From Candidatus Nitrotoga sp. SPKER (lineage in GTDB: Bacteria; Pseudomonadota; Gammaproteobacteria; Burkholderiales; Gallionellaceae), in assembly GCA_003402285.1 (NCBI GenBank), contig QFXG01000017.1, positions 62,001-126,000 of the forward strand: a DNA stretch of 64,000 nt, written 5' to 3'. The notes under the pieces were generated by a model. It made no database searches. It had not been told where the DNA came from and saw only the letters and a program-made list of their open reading frames with translations. Both the position numbers and the translations under genes were made by a program. Of this stretch, positions 25,875-40,181 are shown piece after piece; the first letter of the stretch is position 1; the number at the start of each line of letters is the position of its first letter.

Positions 25875-26085
25875 CGGGAATTGGTTTTAAATATGAAATT
25901 CTATATATAGAAAATAAATATAAAAACTGTGCTCGTAAATCTCGCCACGTGCCTCTAGTCTTGAATCCTGAATTTTTTGCCCCTTGCCTCTTGAATCCAA
26001 GATTTGCATTGTGGTTTGTCGCGGCTGGGTCGATAGTACGATTCAATGTGCATTCCAACGACACGACTCGCGTGAGTTTCCTAGC

Positions 26086-27603
26086 ATGAGGCTGAGTGGA
26101 AATCTATTTGCAGGATTAGCAAATTCGATCTGGTCGGCACTGATCGGCTTGGCAGTTGTTCCCTTCTATCTTAAATATCTCGGAATAGAAGCGTATGGTT
26201 TGATCGGTTTCTTTGTGACGACGCAGACATTGCTTTCCCTTCTTGATATGGGATTAGCGCCAACGATTAACCGCGAGGTCGCACGATATTCGGCATCGGG
26301 AAATTTAAAGGAAGCAGGGAAGTTACTCCATACTCTCGCCATCGTTTATTGGGGAATGGCTGGAGTAATTTCTTTGTTGATGGTGTTGTTGGCCCCATTG
26401 ATTACGGAACACTGGCTACAATCCAAATATCTTTCACATCAAACCATTGAGCATGCTGTAATTTTGATGGGGCTGGTGGTTGCTTGCCGCTGGCCAATTG
26501 GATTATATCAAGGCGCCTTGATAGGCGCGCAGCGCTTGATGATATCGAGTGGGATCAATATTGTGATGGTGACGCTAGGAAGTTTGGGCGCCGTGATGGT
26601 GCTTGCCTTTATAGCGCCGACAATTGAGACTTTCTTTATTTGGCAGGCTGGGGTTGGACTTGTTCATGCGGCAATCATGCGGTGGGCAGCATGGCGGGTA
26701 ATAGGGCGATTAAAGGATATACGATTCGATGTTGATAAGCTGAAACAGATATGGCGTTTTTCCGCGGGCATGAGCGGGGTTGCAGTTTCGGGAGTTATCC
26801 TGATGCAATTGGATAAGGTGCTGTTAAGTAGAATACTTAGTTTGGAAGATTTTGGACGTTATGCATTAGCTGGGGTTGTTGTAAACGGTTTATATGTATT
26901 ACTTACGCCTACTTTTAATGTGATTTATCCGCGTTTATCCGCACTTGTTGCTACTGGAGATACTGACAAGTTGATTGAATTGTATCGGTCAGGAACTCGT
27001 TTGCTTTCAGCAGTCCTTTTCCCAATAGCAACGGCTATCGCTATTTTTGCTGAAGAAATACTTTCTTTGTGGACGGGAAACTTGTCGGTTGCGTCGAATA
27101 TGGCTCCAATAGTCGCTCTACTTTTGATTGGTACCGCGTTAAATGGGGTTATGCATTTTCCTTATGCTTTGCAATTAGCTTTTGGCATGACACGCTTGCC
27201 ATTGATGATCAATGTCATATTGGTCATCATTATGATACCAATGACCATTTTGCTCGCTATGCAGTTCGGGGTTCTTGGTGGCGCGACAGCGTGGGCACTA
27301 TCAAGAGGTATATACCTATTAATCGGTACATGGCTTACGCACAGGACATTATTACAAGGGCTTGGGTTGAAGTGGTTGTTATGGGACGTGGGAATGCCAC
27401 TTTGTTTGTCACTGTTGGTGGTAGGAATTGCGGGAGGCAAAGTTCGCGAGTGGGGGTATTCTAATTACGTGGAATTATTTATCGGGAGTGGATTGGTATT
27501 GTTTGCTTTTTTGTTAGTTATTTTATTTTCACCGCGTTTAAGGTTCGCTGTGCAAAACAACTTTTTTTCTGATGAGTTTCCGCATGACCCAGCTAAAAGT
27601 TAA
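26086..27603 (+). CDS. Oligosaccharide flippase (Wzx-type, MOP superfamily)
   Basis: 505-residue integral membrane protein with about 12-14 hydrophobic helices. The N-terminus SGNLFAGLANSIWSALIGLA and PFYLKYLGIEAYGLIGFFV is typical of RfbX/Wzx transporters that flip undecaprenyl-linked repeat units. The frame opens upstream at 25984 but that portion is not family-like, so ATG 26086 is used. The Wzx/Wzy route would need a polymerase, which is not found in this locus. Confidence 0.88.
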   Translation: MRLSGNLFAGLANSIWSALIGLAVVPFYLKYLGIEAYGLIGFFVTTQTLLSLLDMGLAPTINREVARYSASGNLKEAGKLLHTLAIVYWGMAGVISLLMVLLAPLITEHWLQSKYLSHQTIEHAVILMGLVVACRWPIGLYQGALIGAQRLMISSGINIVMVTLGSLGAVMVLAFIAPTIETFFIWQAGVGLVHAAIMRWAAWRVIGRLKDIRFDVDKLKQIWRFSAGMSGVAVSGVILMQLDKVLLSRILSLEDFGRYALAGVVVNGLYVLLTPTFNVIYPRLSALVATGDTDKLIELYRSGTRLLSAVLFPIATAIAIFAEEILSLWTGNLSVASNMAPIVALLLIGTALNGVMHFPYALQLAFGMTRLPLMINVILVIIMIPMTILLAMQFGVLGGATAWALSRGIYLLIGTWLTHRTLLQGLGLKWLLWDVGMPLCLSLLVVGIAGGKVREWGYSNYVELFIGSGLVLFAFLLVILFSPRLRFAVQNNFFSDEFPHDPAKS

Positions 27604-36215: not shown

Positions 36216-37172
36216 ATGAAATTTATGATTTCCGGGGCTAGCGGCTTTGTTGGTAAAGCACTTTGTACTGAATTGATTCGGCGAGGGCAGTCTGTAAGGG
36301 CGGCGGTGCGTTCAGAAAATTTATTGATTGAAAATACGAAAGCCATAAGTGTTGGCGCAATTGATAGTGAGACGAATTGGGCTGATGCGCTACGCGATGT
36401 GGATGTAGTCATCCATCTTGCCGCACGAGTGCATGTAATGCGCGAGCACGCTACGGATCCATTGGCCGAGTTTTTAAAAGTCAACCTGCACGGCACTTCA
36501 AATCTCGCTCGGCAGGCTGCTTGTTCTGGGGTGAAGCGGCTCGTTTACGTTAGTTCGATCAAGGTGAATGGCGAGCAAACTAGCGTAACGCAGTCATTTA
36601 CAGAGCTGGATAAACCCAATCCACAGGATTTTTACAGCATCTCGAAATGGCAAGCCGAACAAGCATTGTGGCGTATTGCTCAAGAAACCGGTTTGGAAAT
36701 TGTTGTTGTGCGTCCGCCATTGGTTTATGGCCCGGGTGTCAAAGGCAATTTTGCACAAATGCTAGCGATAATCACCAAGCGCTTTCCTTTACCATTGGCT
36801 TCTGTATATAACCTTCGCAGTCTGATTTACGTGGGAAATCTGGTGGATGCTTTGATAGTCTGTGCGACCCATCCTGTCGCCGCAGGCCATACTTATCTGG
36901 TATGTGATGGTGAGGGTGTCTCCACTCCGCATTTGTTGCGCCAATTAGGAGATGCGATGAGATACCCAGCACACTTATTGCCGTTTCCGCTTAGCTGGTT
37001 ACGTATATTGGGAAAATTATCCGGCAAATCTGATCAAGTCGAACGGTTACTCAGCTCGTTGCAGATCGATAGTGGTAAAATTCGCCGTGATTTAAATTGG
37101 GTACCTCCTTATACTTTGCAACTGGGGCTGCAAGCGACTGCAGAATCGTACAGGCGCTTGGAACTTAGGTAA
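36216..37172 (+). CDS. NAD-dependent epimerase/dehydratase (WbpV/GalE-like SDR)
   Basis: 318-residue extended SDR. FMISGASGFVGKALC is the NAD-binding loop, VIHLAARVHV follows, and FYSISKWQAEQAL holds the catalytic YxxxK. This subgroup commonly sits directly before WbpL-type transferase genes and may epimerise the UDP-HexNAc used for initiation. Substrate not proven. Confidence 0.85.
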   Translation: MKFMISGASGFVGKALCTELIRRGQSVRAAVRSENLLIENTKAISVGAIDSETNWADALRDVDVVIHLAARVHVMREHATDPLAEFLKVNLHGTSNLARQAACSGVKRLVYVSSIKVNGEQTSVTQSFTELDKPNPQDFYSISKWQAEQALWRIAQETGLEIVVVRPPLVYGPGVKGNFAQMLAIITKRFPLPLASVYNLRSLIYVGNLVDALIVCATHPVAAGHTYLVCDGEGVSTPHLLRQLGDAMRYPAHLLPFPLSWLRILGKLSGKSDQVERLLSSLQIDSGKIRRDLNWVPPYTLQLGLQATAESYRRLELR

Positions 37173-37215
37173 GAAGAGTTAGTTAGTAAGTATGCTATTT
37201 TTCTGCGATTCATTG

Positions 37216-37263
37216 CTTTTAATAAAATATACAAAATTACTTTTAATAAAATATACAAAATTA
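37216..37263 (+). repeat. 24-bp perfect tandem duplication
   Basis: The unit CTTTTAATAAAATATACAAA plus ATTA occurs twice head to tail (37216-37239, 37240-37263), in the 188-bp gap upstream of the WbpL-like gene. The unit is AT-rich; copy number could vary by slippage. Confidence 0.85.
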
Positions 37264-37361: not shown

Positions 37362-38294
37362 ATGTCGCATTATGCCCCCCTGATTGCCGCTCTAATCACC
37401 ATGCTGGTGATTACTATCATCGTATACAGTAAAGCTGGTAAAAAAATTCAAGATATCCCCAATGAACGTTCATTGCATGAAGAACCGATTCCGCGTGTTG
37501 GCGGGGTGGGGTTGATGGCGGGTCTCCTGTCTGCCTGGGCATTGATGGTGATGTCATTAGCTTGGTGGGTGGTATTACCCATGATTTTATTGTTCGGTGT
37601 TTCTTTGTTAGATGACGTGCGCGGTTTGCCAGTACGACAACGTTTGTTGGCGCACTTCGCGGCTGCGGTAATTCTGGTGCTCGGCTCTGGCTTACTGGCT
37701 CATGGTATAGCGCAGGCTTTACTCGTATTGCTGTGCGTAGTTTGGATGACCAATCTATTTAATTTTATGGATGGATCAGATGGCTTGGCTGGAGGTATGA
37801 CATTTTTTGGCTTCACCATGTACGGGGTAGCAGCACTGATGCATGGCGCAGATACTCAGGCTATGCTAAATTTTTCAATTGGTGCCGCGGGATTGGGATT
37901 GCTGTATTACAATTTTTATCCGGCTCAAGTATTTATGGGTGATGCAGGATCCATTCCGCTTGGTTTTTTATCTGCTGCGATGGGGTTGTGGGGCTGGCAA
38001 CAGGGACTATGGCCGGGATGGTTTCCGTTGCTGGTATTCTCTCCTTTTATTGTAGATGCGAGTGTCACCTTGCTGAAACGTATGCTGCGTCGTGAAAAAA
38101 TCTCTCAAGCACATCGCGAACATTATTACCAACGTTTAGTGCAGATTGGTTGGGGACATCGAAATGTCGCATTATTTGAATATATTTTGATGTTTGGGGT
38201 TGGTGCCTCTGCCATTTGGTATTTGCGTCAGTCCACCGAATGGCCATGGCTTCTGTTCCTAGTATGGGGGGGGGGTATGCCGGGCTTATGTTAA
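37362..38294 (+). CDS. Initiating glycosyltransferase, WbpL/WecA family (GT4 membrane type), 3' end frame-shifted at a G10 tract
   Basis: Polyprenyl-phosphate HexNAc-1-phosphate transferase with about 10 membrane helices, expected to start the O-unit on undecaprenyl phosphate. Motifs: ERSLHEEPIPRVGG, LLDDVRGLPVRQR, TNLFNFMDGSDGLAGG and YPAQVFMGDAGSIPLGF. As read, the protein ends after 310 residues with the non-family tail GMPGLC. The other frame past the G run encodes YAGLMLILDNRWKEFQRSQR and ends at TAG 38339-38341, as expected for the family. Eight or eleven G instead of ten would restore it. Confidence 0.88.
   Translation: MSHYAPLIAALITMLVITIIVYSKAGKKIQDIPNERSLHEEPIPRVGGVGLMAGLLSAWALMVMSLAWWVVLPMILLFGVSLLDDVRGLPVRQRLLAHFAAAVILVLGSGLLAHGIAQALLVLLCVVWMTNLFNFMDGSDGLAGGMTFFGFTMYGVAALMHGADTQAMLNFSIGAAGLGLLYYNFYPAQVFMGDAGSIPLGFLSAAMGLWGWQQGLWPGWFPLLVFSPFIVDASVTLLKRMLRREKISQAHREHYYQRLVQIGWGHRNVALFEYILMFGVGASAIWYLRQSTEWPWLLFLVWGGGMPGLC
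38266..38275 (+). repeat. Homopolymeric G10 tract in coding region
   Basis: Ten consecutive G inside the WbpL-like gene, exactly at the point where the family-like reading frame is lost. Such tracts are classical slipped-strand sites, but are also a common place for assembly or read-length errors. Confidence 0.9.
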
Positions 38295-38333
38295 TTTTGG
38301 ATAATCGCTGGAAAGAATTTCAGCGAAGCCAGC

Positions 38334-40181
38334 GTGGCTAGATTAGATGTGCGTACCCTGTTGGCGATGCTGCATGACTTTACGGCAGCAGTATTTGCCT
38401 GGAGTTTGGCTTATCTGTTGCGCTTCAATTTCGAGCCACCACCCCATTTCATTGATGAAATGCTACATACCCTGATCTGGGTAGTACCCTTGCAAAGTAT
38501 TATTTTCTGGCGTTTTGGTTTATATCGGGGACTATGGCGTTATGCCAGTGTAACTGACTTACGCCGAATTTTTTTGGCGGTACTGACGGCTGCCGCGTTC
38601 ATTCCTTTGGTGTTGTGGATGTTTCGTATCGATGCCGTAATACCTCGTTCGGTACTGGTGATTAACCCTGCGCTATTGTTACTTATGATGGGTGGGAGTC
38701 GTTTCATCTATCGTCTCTGGAAAGAACATGGCTTGTATCACAATCTAAAATTAAATGTAGAGCCCGTGCTGGTGTTAGGAGCGAGCGATGCAGCCGTAGG
38801 TTTGTCGAAGGAACTGGCACGCAGCCGCGATTGGCGGCTGGTGGGGTTTCTGGATGATAATGTGGATAAACATGGGCGTATTCTCAATGGGATCAAGGTG
38901 CTGGGCGCGCTGGATAGCCTGGCGCAATGGACAGAACGCATGGATGTAAAACAAGCCATTATTGCCATGCCATCGGCTCCACACCCGGTGCGCAAGCGTG
39001 CGATTGAGATTTGTAATCAGGCTAAAGTCAAAGTGCTGACGGTACCATCCTTTGATGATCTGTTAAGTGGGCGTGTTGCCATTTCGCAATTGCGAGCCGT
39101 GGAGCTGGATGATCTGCTGGGACGTGATCCAGTGCAATTGGATGCGGCCGGGCTGCATGAATTATTCACTAACAAAACTGTGCTGGTAACTGGTGCCGGT
39201 GGATCCATCGGCTCTGAGTTATGTCGCCAGATCATACACTTCAAACCGCGTACTGTAGTCATGTTCGAGTTGAGTGAATTTGCACTGTATAACATGGAAC
39301 AGGAGCTGGCTGCGAAATTCGATGGCCTCGATGTAGTTTGCCTGATCGGAGATGTGCGTGATGCTGCCCGTCTTGATCAAGTTTTTTCTGAGTATAAGCC
39401 TGCGGTAGTTTTTCATGCTGCCGCATACAAGCATGTCCCGCTAATGGAACAACATAACGCCTGGCAGGCGATACGCAATAATGTGTTGGGAACATGGTCG
39501 GTCGCCACCGCTGCGCAGCGCCATGATGTAGCCAAATTTGTATTGATCTCTACCGATAAAGCGGTTAATCCAACCAATGTGATGGGAGCGAGTAAACGTC
39601 TGGCAGAAATGGTATGTCAGGGATTACAGCAGTCTGGCGGAACGCGTTTTATTATGGTGCGTTTCGGCAATGTTTTGGGCAGCACCGGTAGCGTCATTCC
39701 AAAATTCCGTGAACAGATTGCGAAGGGTGGGCCACTTACCGTTACACATCCAGACATTACACGCTATTTCATGTCAATTCCCGAAGCTGCGCAATTAGTA
39801 TTGCAGGCCAGTTTAATGGGCAAAGGTGGAGAAATATTTGTATTGGATATGGGTGATCCAGTAAAAATTGTTGATTTAGCGAATGACCTTATTCGTCTTT
39901 CCGGCTTAAGTAAAGATGATATTCGGATTGAATTCACAGGCCTGCGCTTAGGTGAAAAACTGTATGAAGAACTGTTAGCTGACAACGAGCACACTTTGCC
40001 CACTCCTCATGTAAAACTGCGCATCGCACAAGCGCGTGAAGTGGACGCTGCATGGCTGGGAAATTTATTAATTTGGTTTAGTACGCATGCTACGCAGGGC
40101 GACGCAGAAGTTAAACGTGCCTTGACACAATGGATACCGGAATACTGTCCAGATTCTAATGGCGTTGCAAAGTTAAAATGA
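38334..40181 (+). CDS. Polysaccharide biosynthesis dehydratase, WbpM/CapD family
   Basis: 615 residues: an N-terminal membrane domain with about four helices, a Rossmann-like domain (VEPVLVLGASDAAVGLSKEL, about 142-161) and a catalytic SDR domain (KTVLVTGAGGSIGSELCRQI, STDKAVNPTNVMGASKR, where Met replaces the usual Tyr of YxxxK as in WbpM). It should make UDP-4-keto-6-deoxy-HexNAc for QuiNAc/FucNAc-type sugars, the substrate of WbpL. GTG 38334 overlaps the restored WbpL stop by 8 bp. Confidence 0.92.
   Translation: MARLDVRTLLAMLHDFTAAVFAWSLAYLLRFNFEPPPHFIDEMLHTLIWVVPLQSIIFWRFGLYRGLWRYASVTDLRRIFLAVLTAAAFIPLVLWMFRIDAVIPRSVLVINPALLLLMMGGSRFIYRLWKEHGLYHNLKLNVEPVLVLGASDAAVGLSKELARSRDWRLVGFLDDNVDKHGRILNGIKVLGALDSLAQWTERMDVKQAIIAMPSAPHPVRKRAIEICNQAKVKVLTVPSFDDLLSGRVAISQLRAVELDDLLGRDPVQLDAAGLHELFTNKTVLVTGAGGSIGSELCRQIIHFKPRTVVMFELSEFALYNMEQELAAKFDGLDVVCLIGDVRDAARLDQVFSEYKPAVVFHAAAYKHVPLMEQHNAWQAIRNNVLGTWSVATAAQRHDVAKFVLISTDKAVNPTNVMGASKRLAEMVCQGLQQSGGTRFIMVRFGNVLGSTGSVIPKFREQIAKGGPLTVTHPDITRYFMSIPEAAQLVLQASLMGKGGEIFVLDMGDPVKIVDLANDLIRLSGLSKDDIRIEFTGLRLGEKLYEELLADNEHTLPTPHVKLRIAQAREVDAAWLGNLLIWFSTHATQGDAEVKRALTQWIPEYCPDSNGVAKLK

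Follow-up and report, generated by a model that had tools for sequence, protein, structure and literature searches.

The transferase gene and its interrupted frame

The organism is a freshwater nitrite-oxidising bacterium, Candidatus Nitrotoga, and the affected gene encodes a surface-sugar starter enzyme. The window, i.e. the whole stretch of 64,000 nucleotides that was analysed, comprises positions 62001-126000 of contig C17 in a genome (G000) of 2,982,257 bp, assembled in 32 contigs with a completeness score of 100%. The following features were identified:

25984..27603 (+), Wzx-like flippase gene (PF01943, Pfam match) of the same surface polysaccharide cluster
36216..37172 (+), NAD-dependent epimerase/reductase gene (PF01370, Pfam match), upstream of the transferase gene
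37362..38294 (+), polyprenyl-phosphate sugar-1-phosphate transferase gene (PF00953, WecA/WbpL-like, Pfam match), 310 amino acids; intact homologues of the same genus have 325-327
38266..38275 (+), G10 tract, read from the sequence; the closest relatives have G9-T-G at the same place
38276..38341 (+), family-like tail YAGLMLILDNRWKEFQRSQRG in another frame than that of 37362, with stop codon TAG 38339-38341, in agreement with the homologues
38334..40181 (+), nucleotide-sugar dehydratase gene (PF02719), which we take to be WbpM/FlaA1-like; there is an 8-nt overlap between its GTG start and the family stop codon

The product of 37362..38294 belongs to the family PF00953 (Glycos_transf_4), for which it scored 101.7 bits at a gathering score of 27. 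With the WecA equivalog TIGR02380 only 60.4 bits were reached, far under the curated cut-off of 326.05. The genes follow a WbpL-type order of PF01370 reductase, PF00953 transferase and PF02719 WbpM-like dehydratase, with the PF01943 Wzx cluster upstream. This order of reductase, transferase and WbpM-like dehydratase is presumably that of Pseudomonas and, judged by gene order, the PF01370 gene should be WbpV-like. WbpL moves FucNAc/QuiNAc-1-P onto undecaprenyl phosphate. A redundant PF00953 enzyme was considered and discarded, since the sole other PF00953 protein detected by a profile search of the genome is MraY. Two PF02397 initiating enzymes are encoded elsewhere in the genome, and the one that was scanned scores above the WcaJ cut-off. 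The gap between the epimerase and the transferase genes contains a 24-nt tandem duplication (37212-37263, 2.2 copies, 96% match) that is present in none of the eight relatives compared. It is a second strain-specific change just 5' of the transferase gene and possibly affects a promoter.

The frame opened by ATG 37362 runs through the G10 tract, a slippage-prone repeat at codons 302-305 of an approximately 326-codon gene, and ends at TAA 38292-38294 after LVWGGGMPGLC. The sequence-only reading had stated that the ten G throw the transferase out of its family-like frame, that the alternative frame downstream supplies the family tail and a stop at 38339-38341, and that this stop overlaps the next start (GTG 38334) by 8 bp. 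These statements were borne out. The first agrees with the sequence, the early TAA and the homologues, whose comparison confirmed the family frame, while the second follows from direct reading of 38276-38341. The exact overlap was seen here and in 13 of 17 Nitrotoga loci (L003-L015). Three further loci have the start before the stop at a different distance, and the last one (G002) is unreadable. Among 94 rows with a readable end, which include several genomes twice and for which the start was taken as the first ATG, GTG or TTG encountered, 39 showed the exact 8-nt overlap, 36 another start before the stop and 11 a start after the stop, and in eight no start was found.

To describe what the break removes, the window protein was aligned with 34 homologues chosen from 68 loci. 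The catalytic core is intact in the transferase as written, including the HREHYYQRL stretch and the invariant core columns. Of the last helix, which has 32 residues, 21 are replaced or removed by the break. The tail is lost as well, together with the near-invariant residues Y306 (33/34), D314 (34/34) and W317 (33/34), and the stop codon in use no longer overlaps the start of the WbpM-like gene. The structure modelled for an intact relative (mean pLDDT 91.8) matched the structures of MraY and DPAGT1 (best E 1.3e-08, TM about 0.7). Its last helix extends from residue 294 to 325 with a mean pLDDT of 93-95 over residues 291-310. In the model of the window protein the helix covers residues 294-309 and mean pLDDT values of 73 and 71 were obtained over the same residue blocks (291-310), though family residues are kept up to 304. 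Thus, the full last transmembrane helix of the homologues is absent from the product as written, a property that says nothing on the descent of the gene. Since the working stop of the window lies 39 nt ahead of GTG 38334, translational coupling to the WbpM-like gene has likely been lost.

The tract site in related genomes

The transferase gene was found in 17 of 18 genomes of the same genus that were searched, second, distant homologues in G014 and G018 being left out of this count. Sixteen of the 17 homologues have the full frame of 325-327 amino acids; the remaining one, in G002 (L029 and L064, one genome), is interrupted near codon 219 at unknown bases (NN) of the assembly. None of the 16 comparable homologues within the genus is out of frame at the tract. 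A distant MAG homologue (L098, 40% identity) stops at 233 amino acids.

Twelve relatives share at least 90% protein identity with the window. At the tract site, three of them have TGG-GGG-GGG-GTG and one has TGG-GGG-GGG-ATT, while in eight the site is broken up by A, T or C. Hence, at least eight G occur in only four of the 12 closest relatives and the tract is not maintained across strains. The sister genome G007 and two others encode Trp-Gly-Gly-Val as TGG-GGG-GGG-GTG (G9-T-G), the place where the window G10 leaves the family frame. Compared to its nearest relative (T-G9-T-G-TATG), the window (T-G10-TATG) has net one base fewer, so that the simplest single event is the conversion of an interrupted into an uninterrupted run. 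It is also possible that a longer pure run arose and then lost one G, a path that needs one more event.

In a gene tree of 14 sequences (codons 1-300), the window falls beside G007 (G9, support 99), to which it is 94.1% identical at the nucleotide level over these codons, followed by G006 (G8, support 100). Weakly supported positions elsewhere in the tree were obtained for the two other G9 genomes. As G007 has an in-frame G9-T-G and the next genome out has G8, the run is older than the break. Counted from the TATG behind the tract up to and including the stop codon, the window differs from G007 at three of 66 nucleotides, two third-codon positions and TAG for TAA, which are all silent in the family frame. 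The absence of decay downstream implies that either the break is young or reversible or the cells do not carry it.

The comparison of homologues suggested by the sequence-only reading has given a divided answer. The intact frames were there, in 16 of 17 homologues; a pure run of eight or eleven G with the flank of the window, by which the frame was supposed to be restored, was found in none of the 17 homologues of the genus. The accompanying rule, that intact relatives would make the break an assembly error, proved too strong because such relatives fit a recent frameshift in one strain as well.

The same comparison bears on the proposed phase switch. According to this explanation, the G run slips and thereby switches the enzyme tail, and with it the coupling to the WbpM-like gene, so that one surface polysaccharide is turned on and off. 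The gene indeed sits in a surface polysaccharide cluster, and G10 is long enough by the cut-off of seven or more G given for Campylobacter poly-G tracts (PMC6321876). A precedent for poly-G near gene ends is provided by Helicobacter canadensis, for which PMC2823697 describes tracts of G10-G14 whose length varies among reads; an rfbB-labelled gene carries one of them. However, the phase-switch reading is weakly supported and a working switch of this kind is unlikely. At the tract, 16 of the 17 homologues of the genus are in frame and the other one is broken elsewhere; the frames are kept intact by G9-T-G or G8-ATT, i.e. by interrupted runs that a maintained switch would disfavour. Moreover, the tract lies late in the gene. 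Therefore, a switch evolved as such, for which out-of-frame relatives, tract conservation and other tract-bearing genes were inspected, was rejected.

In principle, a stretch of G codons is prone to slippage. It is thus conceivable that ribosomal or transcriptional slippage yields some full-length enzyme from the frame as written, which would agree with the preservation of the tail in the other frame. This kind of recoding is very improbable and was set aside. RNA folding around the tract was unremarkable (z -1.17, 23 of 200 shuffles equally or more stable), the relatives manage without recoding, and the kept tail is already explained by a recent mutation.

G runs and disrupted genes elsewhere

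To assess how unusual the tract is, G runs were counted in the window, the genome and the genus. In the 64-kb window, one G10 on either strand was seen versus 0.07 expected, and at least one occurred in five of 100 dinucleotide shuffles. The genome contains 14 distinct tracts of at least nine G, two of them G10. As 17 of 19 Nitrotoga genomes (this one included) possess at least one G10, such a run is not extraordinary in itself. In 28 genes of the window, GGG accounts for 109 of 664 glycine codons (16%), so that a stretch encoding W-G-G-V will turn into a G9 run by chance now and then. Nothing that we saw points to selection for a tract at 38266-38275.

Besides the tract in the transferase gene, the 14 runs comprise five outside and eight inside long ORFs. 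The latter are hosted by genes for FtsH, a SucC-like ligase, LpxD, an HD-domain protein, an outer membrane efflux protein (OEP), a TonB receptor, a glycine-zipper protein and one protein without a Pfam match. Pfam matches of the FtsH, SucC-like, HD-domain and TonB proteins extend across the tract or lie on both sides of it. No second broken frame was seen in the five of these eight tracts that were checked, four by Pfam and one by the same end as in G006. The latter case is the OEP-family gene, whose run close to the end (a few codons before it) is C9 here (L112 1501-1509) and C11 in G006 (L135 1501-1511), with the final residues kept in frame. Accordingly, unequal tract lengths are by themselves no proof of switching.

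Envelope genes are the kind of gene where switches occur. Several tract hosts (LpxD, the efflux protein, the TonB receptor) are of this kind, which speaks for switching, as do polysaccharide-type genes hosting two of the 27 distinct tracts to which the 30 loci of the G10 search in the genus amount. Ten tract-spanning ORFs were scanned in the genus. They encode a SucC-like protein, an aminotransferase, a GDP-mannose dehydratase fragment, a FliI/type III-like ATPase, beta-helix, JmjC, PilP and Sel1 proteins, an FkbM methyltransferase and ribosomal protein L3. The two polysaccharide-type hosts, the dehydratase fragment and the methyltransferase, both belong to G014, a metagenome-derived relative with 5% estimated contamination. 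Against the switch, both genes stay in frame across their tracts, the dehydratase profile match spanning the tract and the methyltransferase ORF reading through it, and other hosts in genome and genus are FtsH, SucC-like, HD-domain, ribosomal L3, aminotransferase and similar genes. The dehydratase fragment (L129 1453-1911, G014:C37) ends 16 codons after its G10, and a glycosyltransferase-like ORF follows directly. In G004, 29 consecutive C at the end of a contig (L142, G004:C52:9885-9913) are probably an assembly artefact.

Disrupted genes were also surveyed. By comparison of the window with stretches of the complete relatives G006 and G007, the transferase gene was the only one seen to lose its C-terminus through a frame change; other flagged rows were assigned by judgement to window edges, sequence upstream of a start, or non-coding or antisense ORFs. 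In 324 kb of the contig, matches were obtained for 201 ORFs of G007 (at least 150 amino acids and 75% identity), some of which may have been counted twice in overlapping stretches. Twelve were flagged as disrupted; four of these lie only at stretch ends, five were judged non-coding and three were left, namely the transferase gene and two others. The two others are located near 212.3-212.7 kb and 284.2-286.5 kb of contig C17 in G000 (L170, L173, L174). The MsrA-like gene among them has decayed over several frames and the subtilase-like one contains an in-frame stop; G007 has an open frame for each. Three disrupted genes among 201 ORFs indicate that the consensus is mostly clean and that real gene decay occurs. 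Since homopolymer-linked breaks are uncommon in the assembly, this speaks a little for a real event. The test is weak as there are only two G/C runs of at least eight in the 324 kb, the G10, which is the longest G run there, and one G9. One MutS-family match in the genome argues against general hypermutation.

These data also bear on the other explanation offered by the sequence-only reading, a sequencing or assembly error. This is a real possibility, by which the gene would in truth be in frame and one base would have been dropped from the consensus at the G run. Such an error would account for the intact frame in all 16 comparable homologues of the genus, for the perfectly kept residues of the tail after the tract and the 8-nt overlap, and for the position of the break on the longest G run of 324 kb. 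Strain CP45 was sequenced from a culture enriched to 16-24% (PMC8415719). If the strain of the window is part of the same series, its consensus may also be that of a mixture. On the other hand, no frame break was seen at other tracts of at least nine G, although eight of 14 lie in long ORFs (five of them checked), and no homopolymer run accounts for the disruption of the two other genes of the contig. A plain miscall of the T in G9-T-G would have left the length unchanged; the window has one base fewer.

Origin of the break and comparison with known systems

Most likely, the locus has undergone a recent mutation, or an assembly error has occurred at a fragile spot, rather than that an on/off switch has evolved. 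The reading that is tentatively preferred, with a probability of roughly 0.45, is that the sequenced strain has really, and recently, undergone a one-base frameshift at a G run prone to slippage, a run that owes its origin to codon drift and not to selection as a switch. Codon choice alone would have built G9-T-G at Trp-Gly-Gly-Val, and a one-base event in the sequenced strain would then have made G10 and thrown out the family frame. The last transmembrane helix would no longer be able to span the membrane, the enzyme would probably be impaired or lost, and translation of the WbpM-like gene may drop without coupling. The expected outcome would be the loss or reduction of one O-antigen-like polysaccharide, the two PF02397 initiating enzymes remaining untouched. 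Loss of surface polysaccharide is often tolerated in laboratory cultures. What counts against a real mutation is that a draft consensus of 32 contigs can err at exactly such a run, and the otherwise perfectly kept tail is explained equally well by a technical error or a minority variant as by a recent mutation.

It may also be speculated, with little probability, that a nascent switch of an autotrophic nitrite oxidiser has been caught as an accidental, interrupted G9 became an uninterrupted G10 in one strain. Slippage would then alter the end of the transferase and uncouple the WbpM-like gene overlapping it by 8 nt, so that one tract would act on two consecutive polysaccharide steps.

If the preferred frameshift is real, the strain probably makes less of one surface polysaccharide or none, which is relevant to biofilm and phage sensitivity in a nitrite oxidiser. 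In the case of an error, the database entry of the gene is wrong at its end. Either way, the codons TGG-GGG-GGG-GTG for Trp-Gly-Gly-Val suffice to yield a run that resembles a contingency locus. Searches of a literature library returned nothing combining Nitrotoga with phase variation or with O-antigen, and nothing on WbpL, WecA and the C-terminus together.

With the PF00953 transferases (WecA, WbpL, MraY, DPAGT1), the gene shares a Pfam score above the cut-off and, through the model of the intact relative, the match to MraY and DPAGT1. What separates the window product from them is the lack of most of the last helix and tail, present in all 34 aligned homologues, and the WecA score far under the cut-off. 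Poly-G contingency loci of Neisseria are homopolymer G runs in surface-glycan genes. The present locus is similar to them in this respect and differs in that the tract is not kept in relatives, lies late in the gene and is not accompanied by any relative out of frame at it. The same likeness and the same differences apply to the poly-G contingency loci of Campylobacter (PMC6321876). Closest in position are the C-terminal poly-G tracts of Helicobacter canadensis, with at least ten G near the 3' end of the frame, a sugar gene included. However, the published account (PMC2823697) comprises eight genes and length variation at the level of reads, compared to one gene and one consensus here. Since C-terminal poly-G variation has already been published (PMC2823697), even a true switch in the Nitrotoga gene would be of a known type.
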